NCBI GenBank assembly: GCA_002723155.1
Contig: PBNO01000002.1
Coordinates: 51,545 to 115,544, forward strand
Direction of reading: 5' to 3'
Source of the DNA: Ponticaulis sp.
GTDB taxonomy: Bacteria > Pseudomonadota > Alphaproteobacteria > Caulobacterales > Hyphomonadaceae
Length of the DNA stretch: 64,000 nucleotides
The position numbers and the translations under genes are program-made. Shown piece after piece: positions 53,286 through 62,069 of this stretch (position 1 is the stretch's first letter; each line of letters starts with the position of its first letter). The notes below the pieces were generated by a model. It was given only the letters and a program-made list of their open reading frames with translations, was not told the DNA's origin and searched no databases.

Positions 53286-53396
53286 GGCAATCCCGAACGT
53301 CGAACGAGCGCCAAGTATACATGTTCAGTCTTCATCAGCCCTGACCGGCTGAAGACGATTTTGGACCAATTGATTCACTGGCCCGTAACCATAAAT

Positions 53397-53801
53397 CTAT
53401 GGAGTTGATGCTTCCGCTACCCCGCGCCCGGCCTCCAGTATCGGAATGCCTGCTTCGGTTGGCACATAGATGACATCCTGCTGGTTAGAACCGAGCTTCT
53501 GGATCCAGAGATATCTGAGATACCCATCAGGTCCGCCCAGACCATTGGCGATGATCTCATTGGCTTCAGCCACACCGCGCGCCCGCTCGATTTCCGCCTC
53601 ACGAAGGAAAACCGCGGCTTCAGCCTGTGCACGCGCTTCTTCAATCAGAACACGGCGTTCGTTTTCTGCCTGTGCCAGCGCAGCCTTACCGCTCATTTCA
53701 GCGCGCCAGACATTCCATGTCGGCAAAATCCACATCACTGCAGCGAGCGCGAGGATGATCATCACCGCACCGCCCACGAGCGAAAGCATCGGGGTTCTCA
53801 T
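53397..53801 (-). CDS. SPFH/prohibitin-like membrane-anchored coiled-coil protein lacking the band-7 core
   Basis: 134 residues. An N-terminal membrane helix (LVGGAVMIILALAAVMWILP) is followed by a long charged helix (AALAQAENERRVLIEEARAQ, FLREAEIERARGVAEANEII) and GYLRYLWIQKLGSNQQDVIY, then VPTEAGIPILEAGR. This is the C-terminal part of a stomatin/HflK-type protein; the band-7 domain that normally comes first is absent. It may be an accessory subunit or scaffold of membrane proteases. It looks complete, with its own signal anchor, not a broken gene. Located between the SprA-like and a lipoprotein gene. Confidence 0.7.
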   Translation of the reverse strand: MRTPMLSLVGGAVMIILALAAVMWILPTWNVWRAEMSGKAALAQAENERRVLIEEARAQAEAAVFLREAEIERARGVAEANEIIANGLGGPDGYLRYLWIQKLGSNQQDVIYVPTEAGIPILEAGRGVAEASTP

Positions 53802-53874
53802 AAACTGTCTCCTGACCTTATCCGGCCAGTTTACCCGTGCATGCTGGAAGCGAAAGCATTAATCAACACAACGT

Positions 53875-54741
53875 TTACCACCTGCTATCGGGACCAATGG
53901 TCAACAAGGCGTCGATTTCGTCTTCGCTAAGTGAAACACCGCGCTGCAGAGCATAAAACTCCATCATTGAAGCCATGAGCAGGTCATGATCTTCGGAGCT
54001 AACATCACCGGAGACATCCAACTGCAGCGCAAGAAACCAGCCGTCCCGCTCATCCAGAAAGACATACATGTGCTGTCGTAATCCTGGCGCATACAACATT
54101 AAGCAGCGCCCTCGCTCGACAGTCTCATAATCCAAACCATCGAGTGCCGGCTCTTGCGTTATCAGCTCCCTGCGTTCCCCGACCGCCGCGTCCCCAAACG
54201 CAACCAATGCTCTCAGCTGGCGGTCACACGCGTCAACTTGCGGCAATGGCTCGACCCGCGTGACGGCTGACGCCGTCATCACCGTGTCGCCCATTTGTTC
54301 CAGCAGAGTACCAAACGGCGAACGATAAAACGCTGTACCCAGCCTTCCTTCGAAACCTTCAAGCCGATAGCTGCAGACGGGGATATACGAAAACACTCCG
54401 GGTGCATCTGCCTGAAGGGCGTGTGTCGTGTCCTGAAACTCGAAGATGCCGACTTGAGACGGACAGATGCCACCAGATGGCTCATGCCGCACCTGACCGT
54501 TGGAATCCGTCTCCCATTCCTGTTCAGCGAGCTCCATGCCGCGATAAACCAACTCGGTCTGACTGCGGCTTAAACCAGGTATCGGAGGAATCTGCTCGTC
54601 TGCTGACACAGGCGCCGTTGTTCCCATCGGTGGTGTCGCCGGTCTGACATTATATGTTGCCAGCGCAGCAGCCATACAGCCCGAAAGCAGAAAGGGTGAT
54701 GCTAAAAGCGCGAGAAGATATTTGCGATTCTGATGTTTCAT
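53875..54741 (-). CDS. Lipoprotein of unknown function
   Basis: 288 residues. Lipobox LLSGC (Cys at about 22) after a basic start KHQNRKYLLALLASPF. The mature protein has mixed beta/helix content with four Cys residues in the middle third and DERDGWFLALQLDVSGDVSS near the end. No recognised domain. The first gene downstream of trpF on the minus strand (48 bases), so perhaps co-transcribed with it. No other clue to function. Confidence 0.6.
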   Translation of the reverse strand: MKHQNRKYLLALLASPFLLSGCMAAALATYNVRPATPPMGTTAPVSADEQIPPIPGLSRSQTELVYRGMELAEQEWETDSNGQVRHEPSGGICPSQVGIFEFQDTTHALQADAPGVFSYIPVCSYRLEGFEGRLGTAFYRSPFGTLLEQMGDTVMTASAVTRVEPLPQVDACDRQLRALVAFGDAAVGERRELITQEPALDGLDYETVERGRCLMLYAPGLRQHMYVFLDERDGWFLALQLDVSGDVSSEDHDLLMASMMEFYALQRGVSLSEDEIDALLTIGPDSRW

Positions 54742-54789
54742 AAGGCCCCAATCAGCACAACCTGACCGCGACCACCAGACAATATCAAC

Positions 54790-55440
54790 TCATTTTCGGA
54801 GGACGCCCGCAAATGCTGCGATTTTGCCTGCATCCTTCACGCCCTTTTCGGACTCCACGCCGGAAGAGACATCCACCGCTTTCGCGCCCGAAATCTCTAC
54901 GGCCTCTGCAACATTGTCAGGGTTGAGCCCGCCAGCCAGCAACCATGGCCGGTCACAGGAAAAGTCTTTCAATATGATCCAGTCAAAGCTGTGGCCCCAA
55001 CCGCCTGGTCTGTCTGCATCTTTTGGTGGTTTGGCATCAAACAGAAACCGGTCAGCGGCCGTAAAGTCGGCAACAGCCTCAAGGTCAACGGGCGCAGAGA
55101 CCGGCAGCGCCTTCCAAATCTCACCGCTTTTGCGTCGTGCCCGAATATCTAAAATCAACTGGTTGTCCTCAGAACCATGAAGCTGGATGTGATCCACACC
55201 CCATTCGTCGGCAAGACTGACAGCCTCGTCCACCGTCGGATTAACGAGCAGGATGACCGTCTCAACGTCTGGATTGATCGACTTGACGGAGGCCACAAGT
55301 TCAGCCCCCTCACTACGCAGCACGTGGCGCGGGCTTTTTTCAAAATGGACGAAGCCGACCCAGCGCGCTCCGGCTTTGATTGCCTCACGCACACTGCCCC
55401 GCTCTTTCAGGCCACAGATTTTGATATCAGTCTCACTCAT
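54790..55440 (-). CDS. trpF: Phosphoribosylanthranilate isomerase
   Basis: 216-residue TIM barrel of tryptophan synthesis. The catalytic Cys is in IKICGLKERGSV and Asp in GAKAVDVSSGVESEKGVKD; VGFVHFEKSPRHV is the typical first loop. In related genomes trpF directly precedes trpB; here about 3.8 kb with five unrelated genes, one on the opposite strand, separates them. Divergent from bioB. Confidence 0.96.
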   Translation of the reverse strand: MSETDIKICGLKERGSVREAIKAGARWVGFVHFEKSPRHVLRSEGAELVASVKSINPDVETVILLVNPTVDEAVSLADEWGVDHIQLHGSEDNQLILDIRARRKSGEIWKALPVSAPVDLEAVADFTAADRFLFDAKPPKDADRPGGWGHSFDWIILKDFSCDRPWLLAGGLNPDNVAEAVEISGAKAVDVSSGVESEKGVKDAGKIAAFAGVLRK

Positions 55441-55553: not shown

Positions 55554-56525
55554 ATGCCTTTTGATATGCCCCGCCATGACTGGAGCCGCGACGAGATTAA
55601 AGCGCTTTACGAGCTGCCTCTCGACACGCTGATCGGCAGAGCGCTGGCTGTGAAACAAGCCAACTGGGCTGATGGCAAAATCCAGAAGTCCCAGCTTCTC
55701 TCTATCAAGACCGGCGGCTGCGCGGAAAACTGTGGCTATTGCAGCCAGTCAGCTCATTTCGATACCGGCCTTGAAGCCTCCAAACTGATGCCCCTCGACG
55801 AAGTTGTCGAAGCCGCACGCGAAGCCAAAGCCGGCGGCGCAGACCGCTTCTGCATGGGCGCAGCCTGGCGTGAGCTTAAAGATCGCGATCTACCGAAAGT
55901 CGCGGACATGATCCGCGCGGTGAAAGCCGAAGGCATGGAAACCTGCGTAACGCTAGGTATGCTGGGCGAAGGTCAGGCTGAAAAGCTCGCTGAGGCCGGC
56001 CTCGATTATTACAACCACAATCTCGATACCTCGCGCGAATATTACGACAAGGTCGTCACCACGCGCACCTATGAGGACCGTATCGATACGCTCGGCAAAG
56101 CCCGTGAGGCTGGCCTGAACCTCTGCGTTGGCGGTATTCTCGGCATGGGCGAAAGCCGTGAGGACCGCATCGGCCTCATCCATGAGCTGGCACAACTCAC
56201 GCCGCATCCGGAGAGCGTTCCGATCAACATGCTCGTACCGATCGACGGTACGCCGCTTGGCGATTCTCCTGAAATCTCGGTTACCGAAATGGCGCGTGCG
56301 ATTGCCGTTTGCCGCGTCGTCTTCCCGAAAAGCTGGGTGCGCCTCTCCGCAGGCCGTGAAGGCATGACAGAGGGCGAACAGGCGCTCTGCCTTCTGGCTG
56401 GCGCAAACTCCATCTTCGTGGGCGCGCGCCTTCTGACTACAGACAATCCGGGCGAGGACCGCGACGCGTCACTTCTCAAGAACACAGGCTTTGAAGCCGT
56501 CGCCCGCGACGTGATGCAAGTTTAA
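55554..56525 (+). CDS. bioB: Biotin synthase
   Basis: 323-residue radical-SAM enzyme that inserts sulfur into dethiobiotin. The [4Fe-4S]-SAM motif is CAENCGYCSQSA (C-x3-C-x2-C). The second-cluster ligands are in the expected places (ETCVTLGML, DYYNHNLDTS and NLCVGGILGMGE). RLSAGREGM and FVGARLLTT are also typical. It stands alone; bioA, bioD and bioF are not in the window. Converges with the deiminase gene on a shared hairpin. Confidence 0.97.
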   Translation: MPFDMPRHDWSRDEIKALYELPLDTLIGRALAVKQANWADGKIQKSQLLSIKTGGCAENCGYCSQSAHFDTGLEASKLMPLDEVVEAAREAKAGGADRFCMGAAWRELKDRDLPKVADMIRAVKAEGMETCVTLGMLGEGQAEKLAEAGLDYYNHNLDTSREYYDKVVTTRTYEDRIDTLGKAREAGLNLCVGGILGMGESREDRIGLIHELAQLTPHPESVPINMLVPIDGTPLGDSPEISVTEMARAIAVCRVVFPKSWVRLSAGREGMTEGEQALCLLAGANSIFVGARLLTTDNPGEDRDASLLKNTGFEAVARDVMQV

Positions 56526-56569
56526 GAAAAACAGCGGGCCTCTGGTGGGCTAGTCCCACCAGAGGCCCG
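56526..56569 (-). terminator. Terminator of the deiminase gene, with the stop codon inside its loop
   Basis: CGGGCCTCTGGTGGG-CTAGT-CCCACCAGAGGCCCG, a perfect 15-base-pair stem, followed on the minus strand by CTGTTTTTC. The deiminase stop TAG (56550-56552) is in the loop and its last codons form one arm. No T tract follows on the plus strand, so it probably serves bioB only weakly. Confidence 0.85.
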
Positions 56570-58376
56570 TCATATTGCGCGTAACATTGGTTCCGCAGTG
56601 CACCTCTCCGCCCCATGAGTGGTGGGATAGCCAGTCATCAATCGACCAGACAGTAATGCCTGCTTCGGCATAGGCCTCGGTGACGGCGGCCTCCATAATA
56701 TCGACGCCATCAATCACCGGCCCCCATTGCTTGGGCGGGATATAGTTTTCACGATCCAGCAACAGCCCGTTCACAGCCGCCGGATAGAAGGCGATCATAT
56801 TGCCCTGCGAATAGGTGATGTATTCGCGCGGGGTAACATCAGCGTCCGCCATACTGTCTTCTGACGGGCGGATAGGCTGCTCTTCACGCACCCCCGGATG
56901 CGGCACGAAATCTGAAAAATCTGAATATTCGAACAGGCCCGGAATACGCACGACCTGACTTTCAGGCAGACCGGTTTCGGCAAGCAGGATTTGCAGGTTC
57001 AGCTCAACACGGCGGCGTGCCAACTCGTTATCCTCAAGAAAGGCTTCGTCCGCGAGCAGTTCATCAATTGTCATTTGAGGCGCATCAGGTCGAGAGAACA
57101 CCTGCGCATCGCCATGACCTGCCGCCTGCGCCTCGCGCAAAACCTCGAATGCTGACGGCACGTCTTTGATCGCAATCGTCCAGCCATAGGCGTTGTCGGC
57201 AGGCAGGAACTGAATGAACTCGTCCACATGCGCGATGATCAGCCAGGAGGTGTCGAGCACGACAGGGTCCTGCACCCATTGTGCGTCAAAGAAGCTCGTA
57301 AAATCAGAATGCGGCGCGTAACCATCGCCCGCATCGCCATAAATCACACGGCCTGCCGGATAGGACGTTCCATCCAGCTCGTATGGCGGGATCGTCTCCA
57401 GATTACCGAATGAGTCGGCCTGATGGTAATTATCGCCGCCTGTCTGAACCACGCCAAAGCCCGGCCCTTTCAGCGCAAAGAGAGAGCGACCGGCAGAGCG
57501 TGTAGGCTGAGGCGAGCGGATCGCTACGCGGATAATCTTCGCCTCACCATCAGGTGCAGGCATGCTCATATAGCCGAACTCGACAAAGTCCTGCGCCCAG
57601 TTGTCGATGGTGTCGAAACGGGCAAGCGGCGCGGTGAAGCCCGCTTCTGTAAGCGCACCGGCGAGATCATCAACGAACTCACGATGCACAGGGCGGTCGC
57701 TTTGCGGCACATAGACCTCGTTCGCCCGCTCCAGATGGTTATGAATAATCACCGGCGCGACGCGCATGGTGACACGATCAGTCAGCACGTCAGCGCCGTC
57801 TGTCACGGTGAACTCGAGCGTGGCCACGCCATTCCAGATGTCCTCGCTTCGAATAATGTCACGCGAATCGACACCAAATGTCAGGCCCGTATTCAGCTCT
57901 TCAGCGGAGAGCTGCATGTCGCGCGTGAAATACTCCCAGCTCTCTTCGCGGCGAATGAATATACGGATGTTTTCATAACCGACGCCAACCGCCGCGACGG
58001 TTCCGAAGGCATCATCGCTCAACCCGTTGACGGGCAGCGTTCGCACGGGCGCGAAATAGTCTGGCGCATGGGGTAAATCATCTGATGCATCATGACAGGC
58101 TTCCAGCTCGTCATCGCTCTGGCTCTCATCATCCGGCCCTGCGCAGCGCCCTGCCGTGTCACCGATATTGGCCAGAATGATGGCGCCGCGTTCAGCAGAC
58201 CAGTCCGTCTTATCGTCGGCATCAAGATCGTTGACGCGACCATCCCGGTTTGTATCGGCAAGAATGGTGGCAACGGGTTCAACAGGCGCAGCCGTTAAAG
58301 GCTCATCGGACGAACAGGCCGCAAGAAGAATGGTGAGCGTGCCCATGAGCGCAGTAGCTGAGCGAAGAGAAGTCAT
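56550..58376 (-). CDS. Protein-arginine deiminase family lipoprotein (animal PAD-type)
   Basis: 608 residues. Lipobox LLAAC at about 21. At 40-60 lies an acidic DTNRDGRVNDLDADDK, a dockerin-like calcium loop. The C-terminal half has the four PAD active-site residues: Asp263 (NWAQDFVEFGYM), His383 and Asp385 (IIAHVDEFIQFLPA) and Cys594 (EVHCGTNVTR). Further matches to PAD are YPAGRVIYGDAG, AAGHGDAQVF and KQWGPVIDG. The family converts peptidyl-arginine to citrulline with calcium. A secreted, lipid-anchored enzyme would act on periplasmic or external proteins. Similar genes occur in actinomycetes and cyanobacteria; transfer is possible but not shown. ATG 58376 has GGGGC six bases upstream. Confidence 0.93.
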   Translation of the reverse strand: MTSLRSATALMGTLTILLAACSSDEPLTAAPVEPVATILADTNRDGRVNDLDADDKTDWSAERGAIILANIGDTAGRCAGPDDESQSDDELEACHDASDDLPHAPDYFAPVRTLPVNGLSDDAFGTVAAVGVGYENIRIFIRREESWEYFTRDMQLSAEELNTGLTFGVDSRDIIRSEDIWNGVATLEFTVTDGADVLTDRVTMRVAPVIIHNHLERANEVYVPQSDRPVHREFVDDLAGALTEAGFTAPLARFDTIDNWAQDFVEFGYMSMPAPDGEAKIIRVAIRSPQPTRSAGRSLFALKGPGFGVVQTGGDNYHQADSFGNLETIPPYELDGTSYPAGRVIYGDAGDGYAPHSDFTSFFDAQWVQDPVVLDTSWLIIAHVDEFIQFLPADNAYGWTIAIKDVPSAFEVLREAQAAGHGDAQVFSRPDAPQMTIDELLADEAFLEDNELARRRVELNLQILLAETGLPESQVVRIPGLFEYSDFSDFVPHPGVREEQPIRPSEDSMADADVTPREYITYSQGNMIAFYPAAVNGLLLDRENYIPPKQWGPVIDGVDIMEAAVTEAYAEAGITVWSIDDWLSHHSWGGEVHCGTNVTRNMTGLWWD

Positions 58377-58464: not shown

Positions 58465-58625
58465 TCCAGCGTCGCGCCGCCCGGTCGCCAACATGTATTG
58501 CCTGTCCAAAGCGCAGCACATCACTTGGCCCTCACACCTCTGTCATTGCCCGTCAGTGTGAGTTTATTCGCGCTGGCGGCTGGCATCACCTAGGGTCAGG
58601 GCTCCAAACACACCGGAGTTTTCAT

Positions 58626-59328: not shown

Positions 59329-60126
59329 TTGGACACGATCTACACTCTTCACCATTTTGCGTGTTCTGGCGGCACTGTGTTGTCACGCATTATCGGCGGT
59401 ATTGATCGCGCAGTCGTTCTGAGTGAAATCCATCCGGATCGACACCTGCCGCAGGTGTTCAACCCGATCTTCCAGTTTCGCAAATCCTATGGCCTCGAAA
59501 CGCCCGAAGATCAGGCGGCGTTCGACAATGTATTCGTCGAAGAAATCCGCGCCATTCAGGACATCTGTAAGCGCGAAAACCGCGTCCTCTTCGTGCGTGA
59601 CCATTATCACCGGGACATTATCGTCAACCGCCGATCAGAGAGCCGGCTGACTGAAGTTCTGCTGCCGCATTTCAACATCAAACGCATCTACACTTTCCGC
59701 GACCCGCTGGAAGTCTGGACGAGCATGAAGCTGAAAAACTGGCTCGAAGGTGCGAGTGTCGATGAATTCCTCGACCTTCAGGTAAAAGCCCTCGACGAAT
59801 TCAGAGGCGATCTGAACCTGAATTACCATGACGCCTGCGTGCGGCCCGGTAAGTTCAAACGCGCCGTATTTGATTATGCCGGCATGTCTGAAGCTGAGGG
59901 TGATTTCGGCGGGCCAATGGATGACCGCCAGCACTATACCGGCCAGAGCGGACGCTTTGGCAAAGAGATGGCGCCGCGCCCGACACGCTGGGGCGCATTG
60001 TCAGACGGTGACATTCTCGCCTTCGCGAACTCTCCGATTTACGCCGAATTATGCCAGAGGACGGGCCTGAAACTGATCCCTGCCCGCGATATTCCACCTC
60101 GCGTCCAGCGACTTCTGAACAGCTAG
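59329..60126 (+). CDS. Sulfotransferase-family protein
   Basis: 265 residues, cytoplasmic. HFACSGGTVLSRIIGGI is the PAPS phosphate-binding loop at the N terminus; FRDPLEVWTSMKLKNWLEG resembles the 3'-phosphate-binding (PSB) region RDPxxxxxS. It may sulfate a polysaccharide or lipid. The start is TTG 59329, preceded by GGGGG; no ATG lies before the P-loop. Its stop overlaps the stop of the convergent glycosyltransferase gene by four bases, which hints at a linked surface-glycan role. Confidence 0.75.
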   Translation: MDTIYTLHHFACSGGTVLSRIIGGIDRAVVLSEIHPDRHLPQVFNPIFQFRKSYGLETPEDQAAFDNVFVEEIRAIQDICKRENRVLFVRDHYHRDIIVNRRSESRLTEVLLPHFNIKRIYTFRDPLEVWTSMKLKNWLEGASVDEFLDLQVKALDEFRGDLNLNYHDACVRPGKFKRAVFDYAGMSEAEGDFGGPMDDRQHYTGQSGRFGKEMAPRPTRWGALSDGDILAFANSPIYAELCQRTGLKLIPARDIPPRVQRLLNS

Positions 60127-62069
60127 TCCGAAGCAATCAAACCTTCGCGCTTCAAAAAGTCCGTCATCGGCGCCTCAACATAGAAGGCGGACAGATCGGA
60201 TGTGTCCCACATTGCGAGAAGGTCCTCGGCATCGATAAAATACTGCTTGAGCGCGGCGAAGATAGCTTCTGGTGTGACTTCGTCGATGGAGAGATACGGC
60301 GCACCGGCGGCAAGGGCGATTTCTTCCATTGTGCTTCCGCGAGGTACGACAGGCAGAACATTCAGCTCGATCGCTTCTATGATGATGCCCGATGAGGAAG
60401 ATCGATACCGGTCACTATATGGCAGAAGCACCACATCGAGCCCTGCGAAGGCGCGATAGTACTCATCCTGCGTCGCAAAGCCGGAGCGGATCGTGACATT
60501 GGGATCCTGCTCCAGCCTGTCGATGTCAGCCTGCATAAAGGGCTTTTCACGAAAACCGCGGGCCTGAACCTTATCGAACTGTAACCGCCATTCGACCGGA
60601 AAATTGCTGTCATCCGCCAGCGATATGAGGTCGGGCAGCACGCCATAGCCTTTATCCTCGCGGGTCGCGCCCATCATACCGACGCGAATTTTTCGTGGCC
60701 CGTCTTCGACGCCCCGCGGGCGCCTGTGAGCCCGCGCCGTCGACGCCACCGGATAGACCGCTTTTTTGAACACCTGTCCGCGCGGATCACGTTCGCTGAG
60801 TTGCTCAGAAACTGCACTGAACTCTGAATGCATAAGCACATTGATCGTTCTTAGTTCGGCAAGTTTATCGAAGGGCTGAAGCACCAGCTCGGCCATCCGC
60901 GCATTGGCTTCCCGATTAAGCTCGCGCGGTGCGTATGCTACAGGCAGAAAATCGATGATAACACTGAACGATCGCTTCCCATCCTGTTCGGCCAGCCAGT
61001 TATAGACAGCCTTCAGCATGTTAGGTGTAACAGTCTTGAATATGATCAGATCGACATTCTCAACATCAAGCCGGTCGAGATCCTGCCTCAGCCATTTATT
61101 CTTTCGGTTCGGAAAGCGACCAAGGCTATTTCCGTGCGGCACTCCGGCATACGTCCGAAATGTCAGCGCATTGCTTTGAGCAACGCCGAGCCCTTCAACC
61201 GGCCGACTTTCCAAAGAAGTCAGAACACCAACCTCATCTAGTGCAAACCCTGCATCCTTCAGATATCCGAGCATATGCTGCAAAGAGTTATAATGGTGGG
61301 AATTCTGATAATGGATTGCACCCGTATCAATAATCCTGACGCGTTTTTTGCTGACGTCTTCCAGTTCAGATGAAAAAGTTACCCTCGTCTCCAGATATTC
61401 CGGAACGAGCCCTGACATGCCTATTGCAAACTCGGCAGCCAGATTTCTGTCATCCTGCTGCGCAGCACCCGACGCCAGCCATTTACGCATCAGCCTTTCG
61501 GCTGCATGCCATTCCCGAAACCGGATCATTATTTGAGCAAGAGCAACCAGCATATCCGGTGCCAGTGCCTCACCGAGACGGCTCAGATAAACATCGTATA
61601 CGCCTGAATTTTCTTCCGCGGCCGCAATACCAAAATGGTCAGCTACCCAAAGCGCCAGAAGCGGACAATCATGCGGTGCCTCATTCGCATAATTAAAGAA
61701 GTCGCGCACGACCTCGTTCTCGATAAAAATAATCCGGTTGGTCGTTAGCTCACGCAACAGCGTGAAGCGTAGTGAAACGGACAGGGCATTATAAATGTCA
61801 AAGAACCGCTCCGGCGCGCCAGCTTTCATTGCTGCTCGTAGCAAGCCGAGCAAAGGAGCCGGATTAGCAGGTTTTCGAGTATGTGCAGCGAGCCAGGCAT
61901 TCATCGCGCCCTCCCACCTGCCCTGAAGCTGCGCCTCCCAGGCCAGGGCACGGAACGTATGAAGGCTGTCCGGCTCCAGGTCTTCCAGTCGCGCCCTGAC
62001 CGCTGAAATCTCAGCAAGATCACGCGACCTGATTGCATGCCCGAGACGCTGCTTTAACTCGCTTTCCAA
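60123..62069 (-). CDS. TPR-like protein with GT4-type glycosyltransferase domain
   Basis: 648 residues. The N-terminal 230 residues are helical repeats (LHTFRALAWEAQLQGRWEGA, GLLRAAMKAGAPERFF, ALAQIMIRFREWHAAERLMR). A GT-B-type glycosyltransferase follows (about 240-648): VRIIDTGAIHYQNSHHYNSL, KIRVGMMGATREDKGYGVLP, then GLDVVLLPYSDRYRSSSSGI and EAIELNVLPVVPRGSTMEEI, the GT4 nucleotide-sugar motif (E-x7-E-like). Donor and acceptor are unknown. It converges with the sulfotransferase gene and is about 90 bases downstream of hemN on the same strand. Confidence 0.8.
   Translation of the reverse strand: MESELKQRLGHAIRSRDLAEISAVRARLEDLEPDSLHTFRALAWEAQLQGRWEGAMNAWLAAHTRKPANPAPLLGLLRAAMKAGAPERFFDIYNALSVSLRFTLLRELTTNRIIFIENEVVRDFFNYANEAPHDCPLLALWVADHFGIAAAEENSGVYDVYLSRLGEALAPDMLVALAQIMIRFREWHAAERLMRKWLASGAAQQDDRNLAAEFAIGMSGLVPEYLETRVTFSSELEDVSKKRVRIIDTGAIHYQNSHHYNSLQHMLGYLKDAGFALDEVGVLTSLESRPVEGLGVAQSNALTFRTYAGVPHGNSLGRFPNRKNKWLRQDLDRLDVENVDLIIFKTVTPNMLKAVYNWLAEQDGKRSFSVIIDFLPVAYAPRELNREANARMAELVLQPFDKLAELRTINVLMHSEFSAVSEQLSERDPRGQVFKKAVYPVASTARAHRRPRGVEDGPRKIRVGMMGATREDKGYGVLPDLISLADDSNFPVEWRLQFDKVQARGFREKPFMQADIDRLEQDPNVTIRSGFATQDEYYRAFAGLDVVLLPYSDRYRSSSSGIIIEAIELNVLPVVPRGSTMEEIALAAGAPYLSIDEVTPEAIFAALKQYFIDAEDLLAMWDTSDLSAFYVEAPMTDFLKREGLIASD

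Follow-up and report, generated by a model that had tools for sequence, protein, structure and literature searches.

A protein-arginine deiminase of Ponticaulis sp. with a putative lipoprotein anchor groups with Streptomycetaceae enzymes

Citrullination outside animals has been the subject of few studies so far, and the genome of an alphaproteobacterium, Ponticaulis sp. (Hyphomonadaceae; assembly GCA_002723155.1), raises the question of what kind of protein-arginine deiminase (PAD) it encodes and where such an enzyme might act. The window analysed here is the whole stretch of 64,000 nucleotides of contig PBNO01000002.1 (positions 51,545 to 115,544), and coordinates are given as positions of this window (Table 1). 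A preliminary description, made from the sequence alone, had read one of its open reading frames (ORFs) as an animal-type PAD exported as a lipoprotein. Membership of the family was borne out, including the expected profile match of the C-terminal part: residues 197-608 match positions 2-395 of the 395 positions of the Pfam PAD family PF03068 (E 8.9e-109), which is the sole Pfam family above cut-off, and a PF03068 search of the window's own genome identified a single copy. Among PDB sequences, human PAD4 was the best phmmer match (E=2.7e-50) and 27 of 27 distinct matches were PADs. A profile of six sequences, comprising the window protein, its counterpart L003 from a congener and four Streptomycetaceae PADs, matched PAD4 at 3.8e-69; 27 of its 28 PDB matches were PADs, and the other, 2ob5_A (0.0007), looks unrelated. 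The window protein matched no PAD model in NCBIfam (tand_rpt_95, at E 0.019, lay under the cut-off) and showed no Pfam match to the agmatine-deiminase family at E 1. The PPAD of Porphyromonas gingivalis, described in excerpts of PMC8826395 and PMC12369334 as a secreted, citrullinating bacterial enzyme, is comparable with the properties predicted for the window protein, but is an extended agmatine deiminase according to the former source, whereas the window protein matches PF03068 instead.

Table 1. Features of the PAD gene and its 3' end, with positions in the window.
Feature	Position	Strand	Basis
PAD gene, 608 aa, ATG start	56550..58376	-	ORF and Pfam profile match
Putative lipoprotein signal peptide, lipobox LAAC21, residues 1-21	58314..58376	-	Pattern match; kept in L003
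Divergent PAD_M-like domain, residues 36-195	57792..58271	-	Profile alignment to PAD4, hhalign
Calcium loop DTNRDGRVNDLD, residues 41-52, PAD site-6 type	58221..58256	-	Alignments
Inserted loop with Cys78 and Cys94	58095..58145	-	16-row alignment
PAD_C catalytic domain, residues 197-608	56553..57788	-	PF03068, 8.9e-109
Asp263 (PAD4 Asp350)	57588..57590	-	16-row alignment
His383-Val-Asp385 (PAD4 His471/Asp473)	57222..57230	-	16-row alignment
Cys594, nucleophile (PAD4 Cys645)	56595..56597	-	16-row alignment
Terminator-like hairpin, 15-bp stem and T tail, formed partly by the last PAD codons and stop	56535..56569	-	Scan, folding

The catalytic positions proposed in the preliminary description proved exact, as Asp263, His383, Asp385 and Cys594 are aligned with their PAD4 counterparts in 16 of 16 rows and are invariant in the alignments A1 (10 rows) and A3 (13 rows). 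PAD4 residue numbers equal the printed chain index minus 3. Family membership together with these intact residues makes the deimination of peptidyl-arginine the likely reaction of this protein. Ala382, which adjoins the catalytic His, is found in two of 16 rows (both Hyphomonadaceae) with Gly in the other 14, and would speak against activity.

The six-sequence profile and PAD4 form one continuous alignment (profile 36-617, PAD4 from printed index 119), which identifies the region preceding PAD_C as a divergent PAD_M. In hhalign, the PAD_M region of the window clade also aligned with those of seven further PADs (Prob 95.8, E 7e-09); five of these seven (L019, L022, L040, L041 and L042) were scanned and lie above the Pfam PAD_M cut-off. 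Against the window protein alone, Pfam PAD_M reached E 0.34 over residues 40-98, which is under the cut-off, and no PAD_N match was obtained for it in Pfam at E 1. A calcium loop previously described as dockerin-like, DTNRDG, is indeed present at residues 41-46, but aligns with the first calcium loop of PAD_M, and its residues D41, R44 and G46 are invariant in 10/10 rows of A1 and 13/13 rows of A3, which together identify the loop as part of the PAD rather than as a dockerin. Dockerins contain two F-hand repeats of about 22 residues, and a dockerin assignment was rejected with only one loop in the window protein, aligned to PAD_M. When the PAD_M-region profile was searched alone, 4fl4_A, a glycoside-hydrolase chain that we take to be a dockerin, scored slightly better (E 0.14) than PAD1 (0.18), both matches being weak. 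The spacing between Cys21 and the PAD_M loop is only 15-20 residues. An insert containing Cys78 and Cys94 is present in all six rows of the window clade and in none of the 10 other rows, and a Cys78-Cys94 disulfide is possible. An AlphaFold model based on A3 (13 rows) was poor (mean pLDDT 49.3, pTM 0.43). It yielded 94 Foldseek matches in the PDB at E 0.001 or better, and 49 of the best 50 are titled as PADs, the 50th listed being a cytoplasmic-lattice entry (12dl) that contains PAD6 chains; with TM-scores of 0.36-0.41 (query length) and rmsd of 19-22, these matches add nothing beyond the sequence result.

The designation as animal-type did not hold. In a midpoint-rooted IQ-TREE phylogeny of the 16 rows, 10 of which were flagged for odd letter composition and which comprise neither cyanobacterial nor fungal sequences, the window protein and L003 grouped with the four Streptomycetaceae PADs (support 100/100), apart from human PAD4, which grouped with a PAD that is gammaproteobacterial by our reading (L040; 100/97). 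PADs of an alphaproteobacterial genus (g241) and of the family f426 formed a third group (100/99). Using calcium-ligand lists from PAD4 and PAD2 structures, and an alignment that is uncertain in the loops, we take the window protein to have kept 5/5 site-1 residues, 1/4 site-2 residues (S288 retained; F264, R287 and T292 changed) and 3/9 ligands of sites 3-5, with G72, T74 and Y107 at lost positions. The PADI2 switch residue Asp389 is replaced by G306 and PAD4 Arg372 by Q290. Asp occupies the switch column in 8/16 rows, including two of the four Streptomycetaceae rows, so that this column alone is not diagnostic; Arg at the Arg372 column is absent from all six rows of the window clade and present in 10/10 other rows, and of the 16 rows, PAD4 and L040 alone contain the site-2 residue Asp369. 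Compared with human PAD4 and PAD2, the window protein shares a predicted PAD_C chemistry, the site-1 residues and a PAD_M homologue, but lacks PAD_N, site 2, the switch Asp and Arg372, and carries a putative lipoprotein signal. A link between the loss of site 2 and export was considered and rejected, as the g241 and f426 PADs, which by eye have no signal peptide, also lack site 2.

The PAD encoded on a plasmid of Streptomyces sp. KN37 (WP_320592483.1, L014) shows 41.6% identity over 99% of the window query and shares the Cys pair and the domain order, but has no lipobox and retains Asp at the positions of PAD4 D155, D157, D176 and D388. At the PAD_M/PAD_C junction, the window protein and L003 contain the motif HNH, L014 HHH, L015 HND, and L016 and L017 QHD. 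A citrulassin PAD of Streptomyces was reportedly described by Harris et al. in 2020. Excerpts of PMC9266682 and PMC12971885 indicate that this bacterial PAD is likewise encoded apart from its partner genes but, in a comparison by description only, differs in having a lasso peptide as substrate. Excerpts of Cummings et al. (2021, PMC8826395) describe a two-domain PADI branch of actinobacteria, fungi and some proteobacteria, and place proteobacterial PADIs (69 species, 0.43%) in a branch outside the animal/cyanobacterial one. Like the two-domain PADIs described therein, the window protein keeps all PAD_C catalytic residues, has a divergent PAD_M and no PAD_N, has lost site 2 and contains Gly at the PADI2 Asp389 position, a change reported for actinobacterial and fungal PADIs; its insert near sites 3-5 recalls a conserved fungal/actinobacterial region (155-180) known to us by description only. 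In contrast to these PADIs, it features a predicted lipobox anchor and Ala382, and it appears to lose more site 3-5 ligands. At the PAD_M/PAD_C junction, for which the excerpts describe a triple-His motif, it reads HNH. The same excerpts consider site 3 to be fully and site 5 to be likely conserved across all PADIs, which G72, T74 and Y107 would contradict if the alignment is correct there. The word 'deiminase' was not found in excerpts of a polymorphic-toxin review (PMC3482391).

Two further kinds of bacterial PAD were observed among the searched genomes. L040 (1715-3649, minus strand, contig 42 of G1138) is a much more animal-like PAD, matching human PAD1 at 2.1e-115 and Pfam PAD_M at 2.3e-16, containing Glu351, Asp369, Asp388 and Arg372 as in PAD4, and reaching towards PAD_N (67-639 aligned with PAD2 108-686). 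By our own reading of the class of genome G620, its host belongs to the Gammaproteobacteria, and L040 may run counter to the published confinement of such PADs to cyanobacteria or animals. In genus g241, a PAD of ~770 aa with no evident signal peptide lies between two conserved genes (~285 and 205-223 aa) at five of five loci (L034-L038), the L036 copies of these neighbours having no Pfam match above cut-off, and a three-gene PAD module is possible in this genus. In family f426, locus L042 contains a weak match to one g241 neighbour (E 7e-6) and L041 none.

The N-terminus of the window protein, MTSLRSATALMGTLTILLAAC, fits a PROSITE-type lipobox pattern, with MGTLTILLAAC ending at C21 and Arg5 as basic residue. 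The criterion applied was a lipobox within 15-35 residues and a basic residue close to the start, and the pattern occurs in 5 of 142 window ORFs of at least 100 aa, so that the lipobox alone is only suggestive; by reading, three of the other four matching ORFs also encode plausible lipoproteins. The lipobox proposed in the preliminary description nevertheless held up, with LAAC retained in the sister copy L003 despite differing n- and h-regions and hence present in both Hyphomonadaceae PADs. The protein would sit outside the cytoplasm, apparently anchored as a lipoprotein. According to the Lol rule, Ser at position +2 suggests the outer membrane. The protein may then lie at the cell surface and citrullinate there, as the preliminary description had proposed. 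By eye, the four Streptomycetaceae relatives have export-signal-like N-termini with basic followed by hydrophobic stretches, that of L014 being judged from a start codon further upstream than the annotated one. Searches of open-licence papers brought up no account of PAD as a lipoprotein.

PF03068 matches were counted in genome sets that overlap and include the centre genome where it is part of the set. Among 101 relatives, two have a match, namely the window's genome and that of one congener. The window's genome recurs in the class sample (2/385, with the sub-threshold L004) and in the phylum sample (3/398, with G794 and the sub-threshold L006). L004 and L006 were dropped as candidates, being under the Pfam cut-off; by eye, the frame of L004 reads as a pseudouridine synthase and that of L006 as an isochorismate-synthase-like protein. 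Furthermore, PF03068 was identified in 17/29 genomes of G794's family (all within one genus), 20/248 genomes of its order, 1/369 genomes of G620's class and 1/24 genomes of G1138's family. All four plasmid records with PAD matches are from Streptomycetaceae, phages yielded no PAD match, three viral-contig stretches fit a pattern but none is a PAD relative, and among 12 stretches matched in genome contigs the one relative was L003, the PAD locus of congener G004. The rarity claimed earlier is upheld among close relatives and in the class sample, with a single genome above cut-off among the 385 of the class, but proteobacterial PADs have been published (excerpts of PMC8826395); the ORF is an intact PAD gene, uncommon yet with precedent among bacterial relatives of a known family.

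A synteny comparison of the window's genome (G000) with six congeners (G001-G006) showed a flanking gene order common to congeners around a PAD gene that is present only in G000 and G004. The genes that we read as trpF and hemN, and an AhpC/TSA-type gene, occur in the same order in G002, G003, G005 and G006, where neither PAD nor bioB was found by tblastn between trpF and the AhpC/TSA gene. This gap is narrowest in G002 and G003 (~0.15 kb), wider in G006 (0.5 kb) and widest in G005, where its 1.5 kb contain other ORFs. The bioB-like gene (55554-56525) lies between trpF and the AhpC/TSA gene in G000, G001 and G004, has no match at E 1e-60 in the other four congeners, and is adjoined by PAD in G000 and G004. 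In G001, the alignment with the window breaks off after 56566 and resumes at 58530, 1963 bases being replaced by 24, but G001 retains the hairpin holding the last PAD codons, including a conserved Trp-Trp. Since a pre-existing terminator that spells the conserved PAD tail is unlikely, PAD was apparently deleted in G001, leaving a scar of its last codons. Most simply, PAD is a dispensable accessory gene that was gained in one subclade with or next to bioB and later lost in one genome.

Between G000 and G004, the PAD gene is under purifying selection, with dN/dS of 0.076 (NG86) or 0.090 (YN00). Its dS of 0.41 (NG86) or 0.35 (YN00) is close to that of bioB (0.39 or 0.38), which together with the low dN/dS indicates that PAD was kept functional and vertically inherited since the split of the two genomes, under weaker constraint than bioB (dN/dS 0.007-0.016). 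The hairpin at the 3' end folds far better than shuffled sequences (z -6.33; z -3.13 for the shorter G001 form). A terminator scan of the region gave two sites compared with a shuffle mean of 2.2, a count not above chance, and a promoter scan gave two sites compared with a mean of 1.0, neither of them upstream of the PAD gene.

Other parts of the locus also vary. A 1.4-kb stretch (53394-54833) with a lipoprotein-like ORF of 288 aa (53875-54741, minus strand; no Pfam match at E 0.1) is absent from G001 and G004. In G000, G001 and G004, hemN is separated from the AhpC/TSA gene by two genes (59329-60126, plus strand; 60123-62069, minus strand), neither of which was found by tblastn in the fetched stretches of G002, G003, G005 and G006. 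Gene turnover seems to affect both flanks of the AhpC/TSA gene.

We consider the protein to be probably an envelope-tethered, citrullinating PAD of the calcium type that consists of a divergent PAD_M and PAD_C, lacks PAD_N, belongs to the two-domain branch and is devoid of the animal calcium relay. The Sec route would export it, Cys21 would carry the lipid, and this anchor would hold it in the envelope, most likely at the outer membrane. Acting through Cys594, His383 and Asp263/Asp385, it would hydrolyse the guanidinium group of protein- or peptide-bound arginine to give citrulline. Two places would bind calcium, site 1 at the active site and the EF-type loop near the N-terminus. As the animal relay from PAD_M to the active site is missing, the enzyme might be constitutively loaded by ambient calcium outside the cytoplasm and not switched by calcium pulses, a suggestion weakened by the g241 and f426 PADs, which lack an evident signal peptide as well as site 2. 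Its likeliest use would be to modify peptides or proteins rich in arginine that it encounters at the envelope, removing their positive charge. A more far-reaching version, which we put forward only tentatively, is that a Cys78-Cys94 disulfide loop replaces the scaffold of sites 3-5 and that the tethered, relay-free PAD is permanently active in calcium-rich surroundings, with the outer envelope or cationic peptides of foreign origin as its substrates, which would make it the first lipoprotein PAD of its branch.

A specific defence against antimicrobial peptides rich in arginine, through removal of their positive charge at the envelope, is conceivable but rather unlikely. It fits the predicted extracytoplasmic location and the patchy distribution, and excerpts of PMC12369334 report that the secreted PPAD of P. 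gingivalis, an enzyme of another family, citrullinates LP9 and lowers its potency; the neighbouring genes, however, offer no hint of such a function. We consider it improbable that the protein tailors ribosomal peptides like the PAD of Streptomyces citrulassin biosynthesis, although its nearest kin among the compared sequences are from Streptomycetaceae and the citrulassin pad gene likewise lies away from its pathway genes (excerpts of PMC9266682 and PMC12971885). A lasso B2 protease (PF13471) was above cut-off in none of the seven genomes searched, the sole trace being sub-threshold in G000 (E 3.3e-5), and the predicted envelope tether also argues against this role. Slightly less probable again is a catalytically dead or binding-only PAD, for which PAD6 (labelled 'Inactive protein-arginine deiminase type-6' in the PDB) sets a precedent and which could account for the Gly-to-Ala change at 382 and the loss of Arg372 and many calcium ligands, but the retention of 4/4 catalytic and 5/5 site-1 residues and a PAD_C dN/dS of 0.066-0.070 between G000 and G004 speak against it. 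A true animal/cyanobacterial-type PAD (clade Ai) acquired by transfer together with the animal calcium switch is very hard to reconcile, despite active-site motifs strongly similar to those of human PAD4, with the position in the Streptomycetaceae clade, the missing PAD_N match, the 1/4 site-2 residues and Q290, whereas L040 keeps Glu351, Asp369, Asp388 and Arg372.

If the PAD of Ponticaulis is exported with site 1 kept and the allosteric sites gone, it would reveal which calcium sites are needed by the chemistry itself, and could potentially serve as a small natural model of PAD regulation. G000 and G004, which carry the gene, and G001, which carries its scar, form a natural comparison set for studying the function of this enzyme.
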